From Deltaproteobacteria bacterium (GTDB lineage Bacteria > Desulfobacterota_B > Binatia > Binatales > Binataceae), in the NCBI GenBank assembly GCA_021827465.1, contig JAKAVX010000056.1, positions 1 through 9,816 on the forward strand: a DNA stretch of 9,816 bases. Direction: 5' to 3'. Positions 6,123 through 9,816 of this stretch are shown here, in pieces. Made by a program: the position numbers and the translations under genes. The notes under the pieces are model-generated. The model worked only from the letters and a program-made list of their open reading frames with translations, searched no databases and had not been told where the DNA came from. Each line of letters opens with the position of its first letter. Position 1 is the first letter of the stretch.

Positions 6123-7403
6123 ATGCTGAAGCGTATTTTGCTCAATTTTGCTGTCGTTGCTGCAGGGATCCTCGCCGCGCTCGGCCTTTTCGAAATCGGA
6201 CTCCGTGTCGCCAACCGCAGGTTTCCGTACTTCTACTGTTACGATCGGTATCGCGGATGGGGACTGAAGCCGGGGGCCTCTGGCCTTTACGATCGCGAAG
6301 GGGTCGCGTTCGTGAAGATCAATCGCGACGGTTTCCGCGGCCCGGATGAGCCAAAGCAAAAGCCGCCGAACACGTTTCGTGTGGCCGTCGTCGGCGATTC
6401 CTATACTGAAGCGATGCAGGTGCCGTATCGGGAGACGTTCTGCGCCGTGATGCAGCGTCATCTCGCCGATTGCCCCGAGCTTCGCGGAAAACGTGTCGAG
6501 GTGATGGACTTCGGCGTGGACGGCTATGGCACCGCGCAGGAGCTAATCACACTGCGCCGCCAGGTATGGGCCTATTCGCCGGATGCGGTGGTGCTCGAGT
6601 TCTTCCCCGGCAACGACATCCGCAACAACTCGGTCGTGCTCGAGGGCGACCAATGCCGGCCGTTTTACGTCTATCGCAACGGCGAGCTCGTACTCACCGG
6701 TCCGTTCGTCACCTCACGCAGTTTTCGCCTGTGGTGCATGGCGCGCTTCGATTACCGCACGATGAGCCTGCTGACGCTCGCGGGCCGCGCGTGGAGCATC
6801 CTGACGGAGTCGCCGCATGTTCCCTCGGCGCAGAATCCCGAAGAAGTTGCGATCAACTACAGCATCTACAAGCCGCCGGCCGACGCGGCGTGGCGCGACG
6901 CCTGGCAGGTAACCGAGGGCCTGCTCGGAGAGATGAACGAGGAGGTGAGGGCGCATGGCGCGCGTTTTCTCGTGGCCACGCTCGACGTCGGAATCCAGAC
7001 CTGGCCCAATCCGAAGGTGCGCGCAAAATTCATGAAGCATCTCGGCGTGACCACGCTCTCCTATCCGTCCCAACGCGTCGAAGCGATAGGCCGAGCCGAC
7101 GGCTTCCAGGTGCTCCCGCTCGCGCATCCGATGCAGATGTACGCCGAGGAGCATAACGTCTATCTTCACGGCTTTTCGAACACTCCGCGCGGCTTCGGCC
7201 ATTGGAACGCGATCGGTCATCACCTCGCCGGCGAACTGATCGCGGCGAAGCTGTGCTCGATGCTTCAGGGGACGGGCGGCGAGCCGGCGCCTCAACAAAC
7301 GGCGAGCGACAGTGCGGCACACTGCACCACCGACACGGCGCGGGACCCTGCGAAGCGGAAGTCCGGCGGCGCCTGGTGCGAACTGCATCCGCCGACGCGC
7401 TGA
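6123..7403 (+). CDS. Membrane-anchored SGNH/GDSL hydrolase-like protein
   Basis: The protein has 426 residues from the ATG at 6123. An in-frame TTG at 6093 is possible, but neither start has a clear Shine-Dalgarno sequence. The N-terminus (about 4-30: KR, then a hydrophobic run ILLNFAVVAAGILAALGLF) is an uncleaved signal anchor or signal peptide, so the catalytic domain should face the periplasm. SGNH blocks are visible: FRVAVVGDSYTEA with Ser93; the block II glycines in FGVDGYGTAQEL (131-141); FFPGNDIRNN with Asn164; and the C-terminal GHWNAIGHHLAGEL with His360. Such enzymes are esterases or O-acyl transferases acting on polysaccharides and lipids. The Asp that normally precedes the catalytic His two residues earlier (D-x-H) appears to be Phe358, so the dyad may be altered. 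The last 45 residues are polar, Cys- and Lys-containing and of no known domain. It is preceded by a foldable element and is not clearly in an operon. Family call good; substrate unknown. Confidence 0.82.
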   Translation: MLKRILLNFAVVAAGILAALGLFEIGLRVANRRFPYFYCYDRYRGWGLKPGASGLYDREGVAFVKINRDGFRGPDEPKQKPPNTFRVAVVGDSYTEAMQVPYRETFCAVMQRHLADCPELRGKRVEVMDFGVDGYGTAQELITLRRQVWAYSPDAVVLEFFPGNDIRNNSVVLEGDQCRPFYVYRNGELVLTGPFVTSRSFRLWCMARFDYRTMSLLTLAGRAWSILTESPHVPSAQNPEEVAINYSIYKPPADAAWRDAWQVTEGLLGEMNEEVRAHGARFLVATLDVGIQTWPNPKVRAKFMKHLGVTTLSYPSQRVEAIGRADGFQVLPLAHPMQMYAEEHNVYLHGFSNTPRGFGHWNAIGHHLAGELIAAKLCSMLQGTGGEPAPQQTASDSAAHCTTDTARDPAKRKSGGAWCELHPPTR

Positions 7404-7452
7404 ATCCGCCAATCCGCGCGCCGCAGCCGGGACTTGACGCCGGAAGAACGGC

Positions 7453-7477
7453 GATCACGGCCCCTTGATCACGTGAT
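7453..7477. promoter_or_regulatory. Palindrome ATCACGTGAT with GATCACG repeat
   Basis: A perfect 10-bp palindrome occupies 7468-7477. Its half GATCACG (7467-7473) recurs at 7453-7459, 14 bases upstream. It lies between the SGNH gene and the regulator promoter and could be a binding site for another factor. Short palindromes also occur by chance. Confidence 0.25.
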
Positions 7478-7510
7478 TGCCAGCTCGGTGCCGCTCCCCA
7501 GTCGCTCGGT

Positions 7511-7539
7511 TTGACATAGTTTAGTCTTAGACCTAGTCT
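7511..7539 (+). promoter_or_regulatory. Promoter of the PerR-like regulator, leaderless layout
   Basis: A perfect -35 TTGACA (7511-7516) is followed after 17 bases by TAGTCT (7534-7539), a modest -10. Transcription would start around 7546-7548, essentially at the GTG start codon (7548). No Shine-Dalgarno sequence precedes that codon, and an in-frame TAA at 7539-7541 rules out an earlier start. The mRNA therefore looks leaderless. Confidence 0.6.
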
Positions 7540-7541
7540 AA
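7527..7541. promoter_or_regulatory. 15-bp PerR/Fur-type operator over the -10 box
   Basis: TTAGACCTAGTCTAA is a 7-1-7 palindrome with six of seven pairs intact, the geometry of PerR and Fur boxes. It covers the -10 element of the regulator's own promoter. A second overlapping palindrome, GTCTTAGAC (7524-7532), may allow extended or cooperative binding. Autorepression by the protein encoded directly downstream is the natural inference. Confidence 0.65.
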
Positions 7542-7547
7542 ACGCTG

Positions 7548-7961
7548 GTGGAGATTCACGTCGCAAAGCTCCTGCGAGACGCCGGTATCCAGCCCTCCGC
7601 GCAACGCGTCGCAGTCGCCCAGTACGCGCTCGCCAACTCCGATCATCCGACTGCCGACAACGTATGGGCGAAGGTGCGCAAGAGCTTTCCGATGATTTCG
7701 CGGGCGACCGTCTACAACACGCTCAACCTGTTCGTCAAAAAAGGCCTCCTGCGTCAGTTCGTGCTGGGCGAACGCAAGACCGTCTTCGACGCCAGCGTGG
7801 ACAGTCACCATCATTTCGTCGACGAGGAAACCGGCCGCGTTTATGACATCCCGTTCGAGGCGCTCTCGGTCTCGAAGCTGGAATCATTGAGCGGCTTCGA
7901 CGTGCTTGACTATCACGTTGTCGTGCGCGGACGGAAAAGTGGCGCGCGAAAACGCGGATGA
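7548..7961 (+). CDS. Fur-family regulator, PerR-like, lacking the CxxC zinc site
   Basis: This is a 137-residue Fur-superfamily protein with a GTG start bounded by the in-frame stop at 7539. The N-terminal winged helix contains PSAQRVAVAQYAL, HPTADNVW and SRATVYNTLNLF. The C-terminal domain has FDASVDSHHHFVDEETGRVYDIP. By my memory of Bacillus subtilis PerR, its five regulatory metal ligands (H37, D85, H91, H93, D104) fall on H33, D81, H87, H89 and D100 here, each shifted by exactly four. The Asp at the D85 position favours a peroxide-sensing PerR over a Fur. The CxxC of the structural zinc site is replaced (Asp92, Thr95), and there are no cysteines at all, as in Irr and some PerR-like proteins. 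So dimer stability must come from elsewhere. Sensing of peroxide or haem/iron status is inferred. It probably represses itself through the operator at 7527-7541. The pqqA leader begins a few bases after its stop. Confidence 0.88.
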   Translation: MEIHVAKLLRDAGIQPSAQRVAVAQYALANSDHPTADNVWAKVRKSFPMISRATVYNTLNLFVKKGLLRQFVLGERKTVFDASVDSHHHFVDEETGRVYDIPFEALSVSKLESLSGFDVLDYHVVVRGRKSGARKRG

Positions 7962-7968
7962 AGTTTTT

Positions 7969-8083
7969 CCGGGAACACGATTTCCTGGAGCGAAGGCCGC
8001 GGGCTCTCAGCCCACAGCCTTGGTGATGGTCCGATAACCGGAACTCGTTCCCGGTCCCGCGACTGGGAACCCTCCGGATAGGG
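7969..8083 (+). promoter_or_regulatory. Structured leader upstream of pqqA, with alternative hairpins
   Basis: Between the regulator and pqqA almost every base can pair. Hairpin A is 7969-7975 with 7982-7988. Hairpin B is 7993-7997 with 8017-8021, topped by 8001-8005 with 8009-8013. Hairpin C is 8047-8054 with 8063-8070 (8 bp, one wobble, 8-base loop). Hairpin E is 8070-8073 with 8080-8083. Segment 8048-8054 can alternatively pair with 8038-8043 (hairpin D), which excludes C. The loop of C (TCCC, 8055-8058) could also pair with GGGA at 8081-8084. The ribosome site AAGGAGG follows at 8097-8103. The segment CGGTCCCGCGACTG recalls a conserved part of cobalamin riboswitches, but the GGGAA-GGTG block and B12 box are not evident, so I do not call it one. 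Confidence 0.5.
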
Positions 8084-8112
8084 AAGAACGCGAACGAAGG
8101 AGGTCTGGTCAA

Positions 8113-8187
8113 ATGAAGTGGAGCAAGCCCCGGTTCGAAGAGCTGCGTTTCGGCTTCGAAGTAACCATGTACATCTACAACCGCTAA
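8113..8187 (+). CDS. pqqA: PqqA, PQQ precursor peptide (24 residues)
   Basis: A 24-codon gene preceded by AAGGAGG with a 9-base spacer. The product starts MKWSKPRFEELRFG and ends FEVTMYIYNR. It closely follows known PqqA peptides, whose shared outline is a W-x-KP start, a DLR-like turn and a G-[FL]-EVT-[ML]-Y core. Glu16 and Tyr20, the residues that PqqE (radical SAM) cross-links and that become pyrroloquinoline quinone, are both present with the correct three-residue gap. In most genomes pqqA precedes pqqB, C, D and E; here a strong hairpin follows and the next gene on this strand is an unrelated flavoprotein 360 bases on. PQQ would serve periplasmic alcohol or sugar dehydrogenases. The rest of the pathway must be elsewhere. 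It is far below usual ORF length cut-offs and easily missed. Confidence 0.93.
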   Translation: MKWSKPRFEELRFGFEVTMYIYNR

Positions 8188-8206
8188 CCACCAGCGAGCC
8201 AACGCT

Positions 8207-8242
8207 CCGGGGGCGCCGAAAGTTATTCTTCGGCGCCCCCGG
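8207..8242 (+). terminator. 14-bp hairpin after pqqA
   Basis: A perfect 14-bp GC-rich stem (8207-8220 with 8229-8242) encloses an 8-base loop (AGTTATTC) and starts 19 bases after the pqqA stop. The next bases are CTGTCAGA, without a T-run, so it is not a classical intrinsic terminator. It may stabilise the pqqA transcript or attenuate read-through, as proposed for hairpins between pqqA and pqqB elsewhere. Confidence 0.7.
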
Positions 8243-8397
8243 CTGTCAGAACATCTCTGCATAGCGAAACAGCATCGCACGCTCGCCCGCCTGCAAAGCT
8301 CCCCGGCTCGCAAAAAGCTCTGTCAGGTTCGTTCGCCGTAAACTTCGTGTTGCTTGTCTGACGCCGGGTTGCGCCAGGCGCCGTTGCGCGCGCGTGT

Positions 8398-8427
8398 TTG
8401 ACATCCTCGAACGAGCGGGCGTAGATG
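8398..8427 (+). promoter_or_regulatory. Candidate promoter of the LLM oxidoreductase gene
   Basis: A perfect TTGACA (8398-8403) is followed after 18 bases by TAGATG (8422-8427), a weak -10. The spacer contains the inverted repeat CTCGAACGAG (8406-8415), which could be an operator. Nothing else in 8243-8547 looks like a gene; the only other notable item there is the hairpin at 8495-8514. Confidence 0.35.
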
Positions 8428-8490
8428 CAACGATTGACGCGGGTCTTCCGCTTGCGCTGCCCGAGAGGTAATGCCTAAGGGGTCGACGTC

Positions 8491-8514
8491 AGAAAAAGGC
8501 CAGGGGCGGCCTTT
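8491..8514 (-). terminator. Hairpin with T-run on the minus strand
   Basis: AAAGGCC (8495-8501) pairs with GGCCTTT (8508-8514) around AGGGGC. Read on the minus strand the stem is continued by T (CCTTTTTCT), the layout of a small intrinsic terminator. No minus-strand gene leads into it. On the plus strand it sits 33 bases before the LLM start codon and could be part of that leader. Confidence 0.4.
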
Positions 8515-8547
8515 ATCCACTCAATCCAGCCTGGGGACGGAGGATTT

Positions 8548-9816
8548 ATGATCGAAATCGGGGTTTTCCAAAACGGCGCGTCTGATCTTCCGGTGACCCA
8601 CACCTCCTCGGGAGTTGCGATTAACGACGGCAATCTTGCCGAGGTCCATGAGTCCAGCCAGCGCGGGTTGGTGGGACAGGTGCGGCAGGGAATTCTCGCC
8701 GACAAGCTCGGCTTCAACTACTTCTTCATGACCGAGCATCATTTCCAGCCCGAGGGCGCGGAGTTCAGCCCCAACCCTCTGCTGGCCGAGGCCGCGATCG
8801 CCACGCGCACACGCCAGATTCGTCTCGGGCAGGCGGCGAATATCGTGACCTGGTGGCATCCCGTGCGGATTGCCGAGCAGGCCGCGATGCTCGACGTGAT
8901 CAGCGGCGGGCGGCTCGAATTCGGAATCGGCCGCGGTTATCAGCCGCGCGAGGCCGAGGTCTTCGGATGGCCGTTCGCGACGATCCAGGACCAGGAGCGC
9001 AATCGCGCGTACTACCAGGAAGCCTACGACATCATCATCAAGGCGTGGACCAAGCAGTCGTTCTCGCATCACGGCCAGTTCTTCACGATTCCTCCCGTGT
9101 TCACCCGATGGAACCATCAGCAGACCATCGCGTATTTCGAATCCGGCAAGGCCGGCCGCAAGCTCGAAGAAGTGTTGAGCATCGGCGCGCCCGATCCATA
9201 CGGCGGCGCGAATCCTGTGATGCAGAGCGCGACTGTGCTGAAGGAACTGCAGGTATTTCCGCAGCCGCTTCAGCGGCCTCATCCGCAAATATGGGAGCCG
9301 CTCACGACCGAGCGCTCGATCAAATGGGCTGCGGAGCGGGGAATCAACGGCTATTTCATTGTCGAGCCGAATTCGCGCCTGAAAAAGAATATCGAAATTT
9401 TCTATCGCGAATCCGAAAAGGCCGGATGGCCCGATCGGCTCGGGCGCGGACGCTTCAAGTACGGATGGGACGCGGAGAAGCATCGCGGCGTGCTCACCGG
9501 GCGCTATATCCACATGGTGCTTCCCGGGCAGAACCGCGAGCGCGAACTGAAGCGCTACAAGTCAGCACTCGAAGTGCAGTGGGATTATTACGGCCCGTTC
9601 GGCTTTGCCGCGGTGCTTGCCGACGCGAACGAGGCGATGCTCGATCCGGCGGCAAAGGTCGAGCCCGAGATGCTGCTCAAGAAGGAAGTGGCGCTGTTCG
9701 GAACTCCAGCCGAAGTGACCGAACAGATCATGCGTATCAAGGAGACCTGCGGGTACGAGGACTTCGCATTCAACGCGTGGTTTGAAAAGGGTGGCCTCTC
9801 GAGCAAGGAAATCGAA
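8548..9816 (+). CDS. LLM class flavin-dependent oxidoreductase, 3'-truncated
   Basis: The ATG at 8548 follows GGAGG at 8539-8543 (4-base gap). The frame has 423 codons with no stop before the window end, so the C-terminus is missing. The fold is the bacterial-luciferase-like TIM barrel: IGVFQNG at the N-terminus; FFMTEHHF (59-66), the typical Glu-His-His block; NPLLAEAAIATRTRQIRLGQ; HPVRIAEQAAMLDVISGGR; and EFGIGRGYQPREAEVFG (124-140), the canonical flavin-binding strand. Members use FMNH2 or F420 to oxygenate or reduce alkanes, sulfonates, aldehydes and other small molecules. A middle insertion (about 165-240) makes it longer than the simplest members. It follows a candidate promoter and is probably transcribed apart from pqqA. 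The substrate cannot be inferred. Confidence 0.9.
   Translation, partial: MIEIGVFQNGASDLPVTHTSSGVAINDGNLAEVHESSQRGLVGQVRQGILADKLGFNYFFMTEHHFQPEGAEFSPNPLLAEAAIATRTRQIRLGQAANIVTWWHPVRIAEQAAMLDVISGGRLEFGIGRGYQPREAEVFGWPFATIQDQERNRAYYQEAYDIIIKAWTKQSFSHHGQFFTIPPVFTRWNHQQTIAYFESGKAGRKLEEVLSIGAPDPYGGANPVMQSATVLKELQVFPQPLQRPHPQIWEPLTTERSIKWAAERGINGYFIVEPNSRLKKNIEIFYRESEKAGWPDRLGRGRFKYGWDAEKHRGVLTGRYIHMVLPGQNRERELKRYKSALEVQWDYYGPFGFAAVLADANEAMLDPAAKVEPEMLLKKEVALFGTPAEVTEQIMRIKETCGYEDFAFNAWFEKGGLSSKEIE

Follow-up and report, generated by a model that had tools for sequence, protein, structure and literature searches.

A pqqA gene apart from pqqBCDE and behind a PerR-like regulator gene in a Binataceae-type bacterium

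PQQ is formed from a glutamate and a tyrosine residue of a small precursor peptide, PqqA. A pqqA gene split from the other pqq genes is not in itself new, having been described for Methylosinus, the Methylophilaceae and M. extorquens. In Methylosinus trichosporium OB3b, pqqA is not clustered with pqqBCDE or pqqFG, and transcript levels are given as 11857 and 13927 for pqqA as compared to 161-372 for pqqB, C/D and E (PMC3615186). That gene is separate, as is the one described here, but OB3b is an alphaproteobacterial methanotroph and the accessible text of its report describes no PerR-type partner. The Methylophilaceae carry 3 to 12 pqqA genes, the remaining pqq genes being typically single-copy (PMC4109929), and in M. 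extorquens (Methylorubrum extorquens) the orphan genes pqqA2 and pqqA3 differ between lanthanide conditions (PMC11317620). In both cases pqqA copies outnumber the other pqq sets, the other pqq genes are present, and the linked signal described is lanthanides, not peroxide. An earlier note on the DNA studied here suggested that an isolated precursor gene lets the cell set precursor supply apart from the enzymes, or points to a second copy feeding one PqqE; the principle of separate supply is established in other bacteria by these three sources, and for the present locus it is a matter of the readings weighed below. XoxF-bearing Binatota genomes have been reported to encode PQQ biosynthesis (PMC8262859). 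Our searches of a literature library for PerR together with pqqA, and for pqqA with Binatota, found no paper, and a PerR-like partner of pqqA may be the new part of the arrangement described here.

The window, by which we mean the whole stretch of 9,816 nucleotides that was analysed, contains a pqqA gene on the forward strand at positions 8113..8187, the translation of which is MKWSKPRFEELRFGFEVTMYIYNR, followed by a stop. The profile search that had been proposed as a check gave 46.4 bits against NCBIfam TIGR02107 (curated cut-off 20) and 43.7 bits against Pfam PqqA, PF08042 (curated cut-off 21.1). Both scores exceed the cut-offs, and the frame is therefore no chance frame; it encodes a genuine PqqA of 24 residues. 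The precursor pair, Glu16 and Tyr20 with three residues between them, is present at the spacing that the earlier note had read from the letters, and the strong ribosome site it had pointed to is a Shine-Dalgarno sequence, AAGGAGG, at 8097..8103 on the forward strand, 9 nt before the ATG.

The absence of PQQ enzymes from the window was judged from seven of its long frames, which were put to Pfam. These gave an acyltransferase/OB-fold protein, a thiolase, a phosphoesterase, an FAD oxidoreductase, a GDSL-like protein (with Pfam scores below the cut-offs), a Fur-family regulator and a luciferase-like (LLM) monooxygenase, so that 0/7 frames encodes a PQQ enzyme. The LLM monooxygenase gene (PF00296; 8548..9816, forward strand, open at the window end) is the sole frame tested 3' of pqqA, and it is the unrelated gene that comes next where a pqq operon would have pqqB straight after pqqA. 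As far as this frame goes, pqqBCDE directly 3' of pqqA is ruled out to the window end. Between the two genes, a 14-bp perfect stem-loop at 8207..8242 on the forward strand, seen both as a fold and as an inverted repeat, is terminator-like or could stabilise the 3' end, and lacks a U tract. The stretch 8188-8256 folds with a z-score of -5.5 and the corresponding stretch of the nearest related locus with -2.4, the inverted repeat being found in both. This strong hairpin, taken with the unrelated next gene, implies that pqqBCDE do not lie directly behind pqqA, in agreement with what had been proposed from the letters alone.

We found 25 relatives of the LLM gene, and among their loci (L001-L025) only L001 holds pqqA. 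This closest relative belongs to G001, a Deltaproteobacteria MAG of the Binataceae, and its LLM protein is 98% identical. A comparison of gene order, also proposed earlier as a check, showed that the regulator-pqqA pair recurs in G001: the DNA is 81.6% identical over 7511-8248, the Shine-Dalgarno sequence is conserved, and 23/24 PqqA residues are identical. Ungapped identity is 86.5% for the regulator gene, here called perR, 65.9% for the 151-bp gap and 94.7% for pqqA. Only 4/75 bases differ in pqqA, compared with 56/414 in perR; at the perR divergence measured (13.5%), 4 or fewer differences in 75 bases have P = 0.02. PqqA is thus both true and conserved. Upstream of the pair the DNA of the window and of L001 does not align, and downstream L001 has about 2.5 kb more than the window between pqqA and the LLM gene. 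This extra DNA includes, at L001:7298-9419, hypB-, hypA- and ferredoxin-like frames (named by eye) that lie on the other strand and are absent from the window. The next gene after pqqA in L001 is the hypB-like frame, not pqqB. In the window and in this one related assembly, then, pqqA is physically separate from pqqB-E. The pair is known from these two genomes only.

G001 shows a single pqqA copy, and none of PqqB, PqqC and PqqE was matched in its 3.5 Mb under the thresholds applied. A loose threshold yielded nine weak PqqE-model matches in G001, the best scoring 72 bits where the cut-off is 381; such weak matches occur in all 14 control genomes too, and we take those in G001 to be probably other radical-SAM proteins. 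The assembly is incomplete: 30 tRNA matches were found, as compared to a median of 41 over the 41 family genomes, with four genomes lower, and the counts elsewhere are if anything low, with only 91 candidates scored in many of the other genomes. The absence of one pqq cluster is therefore unsurprising. G001 does encode a PQQ alcohol dehydrogenase piece, the C-terminal part, truncated at a contig end.

The family set, 41 genomes including G001, G003, G004, G005 and G011, shows the more usual arrangement. PqqA matches (E up to 0.001) were found in at least 12/41 genomes. With E limited to 1e-20 for PqqB and PqqC, 1e-50 for PqqE and 1e-30 for PQQ alcohol dehydrogenase, PqqB was matched in 17 genomes, PqqC in 16, PqqE in 17 and the dehydrogenase in 14; the model cut-off was exceeded in 16 for PqqB, 15 for PqqE and 12 for the dehydrogenase. 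PqqE is present in 11/12 genomes with a PqqA match, and G001 is the only family genome with PqqA and without B, C and E. The other 11 genomes have 12 pqqA loci, each 59-187 bp from pqqB on the same contig and strand. The PqqA peptides of these Binataceae operons are similar to that of the window, for example MKWEKPTFEELRFGFEVTMYIWTR in G026; the difference lies in the window having no pqq gene behind pqqA. Across the class, TIGR02107 matched 12/148 genomes, the same 12 of the family, and in a wider search 4/395 genomes drawn from a larger group matched, all four from the family. A weak match in G028 (C201) was left out of these counts, as it lies inside a 550-aa frame. The 12 genomes are a lower bound because the TIGR02107 search missed divergent PqqA peptides beside pqqB at four loci, L070-L073 (G007, G022, G009 and G008), which start MSEWRKPEFVELRMDAEISCYSF... 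in G007, G008 and G009 and MSEWRKPDF... in G022. Genomes with such a peptide could wrongly be taken as pqqA-free.

Other departures from the operon pattern were seen in the family. G039 has a second pqqA outside its pqq operon (contig C14; L075:5481-5552), which heads a block of alcohol dehydrogenase-, PQQ methanol dehydrogenase-, binding-protein- and cytochrome c-like frames, named by eye except for the PQQ dehydrogenase, a profile match. Second pqqB-C-E clusters in which the PqqA profile found no pqqA occur at L083 (G035:C18) and L084 (G036:C25). In G019 and G020 a PQQ alcohol dehydrogenase scores above its cut-off, and PqqB, PqqC and PqqE gave no match; these genomes are possibly users of outside PQQ, or else incomplete assemblies.

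In Bacillus PerR the regulatory metal ligands are His37, Asp85, His91, His93 and Asp104, and the protein carries a Cys4 zinc site in addition. The gene upstream of pqqA (7548..7961, forward strand) encodes a 137-aa protein of the Fur superfamily (PF01475), and the redox-type regulator that had been assigned to this position from the letters is recognisable in it as PerR-like by its metal ligands. Its best PDB sequence matches are 5nl9, a Fur-family regulator, and 2fe3, a peroxide operon regulator. In the alignment to 2fe3 all five ligand positions are filled (H33, D81, H87, H89 and D100), and these residues are invariant in 7/7 aligned sequences, namely the window regulator and 6 of the 15 strong orthologues defined below. 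Unlike Bacillus PerR, the regulator has no cysteine, and hence no Cys4 zinc site. Among curated NCBIfam models the best was NF045678 (IrrA), at 97.9 bits below its cut-off of 150, and the scores for PerRB (94 versus 250) and PerRA (90.7 versus 200) are likewise below; since it falls far short of each of these curated PerR and Irr cut-offs, we call the protein PerR-like. By its ligands it looks like a peroxide sensor.

Matches to the regulator (E up to 1e-15) were found in 25/148 genomes of the class, and 15 of these, at 56% identity or more, were taken as strong orthologues. By Pfam, the gene next to perR encodes a di-haem cytochrome c peroxidase in 4/15, a KatG-like peroxidase in 3/15 and AhpC in 1/15, that is, a peroxidase or AhpC in 8/15. 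Outside this count are G001, where the slot behind perR is filled by pqqA as in the window; G019, where the neighbour is unclear; G453 (by Pfam), G454 and G455 (by eye), where it is enoyl-CoA hydratase-like; and G488 and G489, where AhpC-like starts beside perR were seen by eye only. The locus thus shares with PerR regulators that have linked peroxidase genes the metal ligands, the 7-1-7 site described next and the peroxide-defence neighbours of its orthologues, and differs in that pqqA occupies the place of the peroxidase. An association of perR orthologues with pqq genes across the family was set aside, since kinship was not removed; by hand count, uncorrected for kinship, PqqE occurs in 6/9 family genomes with a strong perR match versus 11/32 without.

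Ahead of perR, the 7-1-7 inverted repeat TTAGACCTAGTCTAA at 7527..7541, the arms of which differ by one mismatch, is a candidate PerR-type operator. In L001 the corresponding position carries a 7-1-7 palindrome without mismatch, and 11/15 strong orthologues have a similar site ahead of perR, chosen by eye among the three best palindromes per locus. A candidate -10 element, TAGTCT (7534-7539), lies inside the repeat, and a TTGACA at 7511..7516 on the forward strand is the candidate -35 of a perR-pqqA promoter; TTGACC or TTGACA is also found upstream of perR in L001 and L089. The -35 is one we infer from the sequence, because the consensus scan missed it. The scan of the window found no second copy of the operator-modelled pattern, and the pattern TTAGACTNAGTCTAA, modelled on the G001 site, matched G001 with up to 2 mismatches at one place, the perR site, with the reversed control pattern matching 6 and 6. 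A 7-1-7 operator at perR's own promoter is thus a predicted feature of both genomes.

The gap between perR and pqqA is another matter. With a matrix built from 12 7-1-7 sites and significance taken from 500 shuffles, no operator-like site above chance was found in the gap, 336/500 shuffles scoring as well in the window and 118/500 in L001. The same matrix, applied to stretches of 120-238 bases after perR, found a site in 6/9 relatives (9/500 shuffles or fewer as good), and none in those of G026, G476 and G489. Given a gap that lacks the operator found in 6/9 relatives, pqqA as a direct PerR target is unsupported; if PerR does act on pqqA, it would have to do so through transcripts that run on from the perR promoter. 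A precedent may be G026: its peroxidase gene begins 41 bases behind perR, no operator was seen in between, and it may be reached by read-through. A search of 7400-8560 found neither a sigma-70 consensus promoter nor a U-tract terminator; for promoters this is a weak test, because it also missed the candidate promoter of perR.

The part of the gap nearest to pqqA may form an RNA structure. A candidate leader stem-loop at 8030..8084 on the forward strand, with an inner 10-bp hairpin at 8047-8070, has the same fold in L001. Four of its pairs are changed on one side yet kept, and 0 main-stem pairs are broken. A 98-nt leader stretch is 78.6% identical to that of L001. Within the stem-loop, differences fall in 6/15 unpaired versus 4/40 paired columns (Fisher P = 0.018, from two sequences). 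Taken as a whole, the leader does not clearly exceed its shuffles in stability (z -0.9 in the window and -1.7 in L001). A known RNA element in the leader was rejected: the two Rfam matches in 7400-8560 have E-values over 5, fall far short of the gathering score and do not rise above chance. A covariance model of the leader (R1), run over 44 sources including other pqqA loci, was strong only at its own two places; five further matches were weak, two of them being the opposite strand of these same places.

The reading we favour, tentatively and at somewhat under an even chance, is that perR and pqqA form a two-gene unit in which precursor supply is coupled to peroxide by read-through. In this Binataceae-type bacterium the two genes would be cotranscribed as one unit, and the PerR-like repressor would control its own promoter through the 7-1-7 operator, which extends over the -10 region. 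Peroxide would oxidise the metal site of the repressor and so open the promoter. Transcripts reading across the 151-bp gap would then carry pqqA with its strong ribosome site and stable 3' hairpin, and PqqD/PqqE and the remaining PQQ enzymes, presumably encoded elsewhere, would work on the peptide, so that precursor supply, and hence that of PQQ, which the cell presumably uses, might rise with peroxide. This reading draws on the PqqA scores and conservation, the PerR ligands, the operator-like sites in 11/15 orthologues and their peroxide-defence neighbours, on the lack of a U-tract terminator, the G026 precedent and the PQQ dehydrogenase piece in G001, and on a pair kept in L001 despite the non-aligning DNA upstream and the extra DNA before the LLM gene. 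Against it stand a gap without operator that is less conserved than perR, the restriction to two genomes, the missing PqqB, PqqC and PqqE matches in G001, the regulator's scores below the curated PerR and Irr cut-offs, and 5/15 orthologues, leaving aside G001 and the 8 assigned by Pfam, with other, unclear or by-eye AhpC-like neighbours. Close behind comes plain neighbourhood, which we regard as a serious possibility short of probable. Here pqqA would be an ordinary separate gene with its own strong promoter in the gap, serving PQQ dehydrogenases via enzymes encoded elsewhere and standing behind perR by inheritance alone. The separate or multiple pqqA genes described in methylotrophs (PMC3615186, PMC4109929, PMC11317620) speak for it, as do the second pqqA of G039 at the head of its methanol dehydrogenase-like block, the gap without a PerR-operator-like site and the conserved 98-nt leader, which would fit a promoter. 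It is countered by the promoter scan of the gap, weak as that test is, by a pair that stayed joined while the DNA upstream changed, and by the peroxide-defence genes behind perR in 8/15 orthologues.

That pqqA is an orphan, left over or turned to a new role in a lineage that lost pqqB-E and takes up outside PQQ, seems unlikely to us. G001, with pqqA and no PqqB, PqqC or PqqE match, could be read in this way, and so could the PQQ alcohol dehydrogenases of G019 and G020; but pqqA has changed little, in bases (P = 0.02) and in residues alike, G001 is incomplete, and PqqE accompanies PqqA in nearly all family genomes that have it. Least probable, and in our estimate very improbable, is control through the leader, in which CCCTCC of the stem-loop could pair with the ribosome site and act as a translation switch for PQQ or another signal. 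The shared fold with its pair-keeping changes, and differences that avoid paired positions, would suit such a switch; these come from only two sequences, however, and neither the stability of the whole leader, nor Rfam, nor the covariance search lends it weight.

Beyond the favoured coupling of perR to pqqA lies the idea that PqqA supply is itself an output of the peroxide response, with pqqA expressed together with perR under a single operator and sitting in the peroxidase slot of relatives, and PQQ acting as, or feeding, an antioxidant or respiratory response; we consider this rather doubtful. If the locus is mere neighbourhood, it adds one more separate pqqA, now in Binatota. If the coupling is true, a peroxide sensor is linked genetically to the PQQ precursor, and a soil bacterium could in this way tie its PQQ supply to oxidative stress. 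This could make testable the notion that PQQ is regulated as a stress molecule, beyond its role as a dehydrogenase cofactor.
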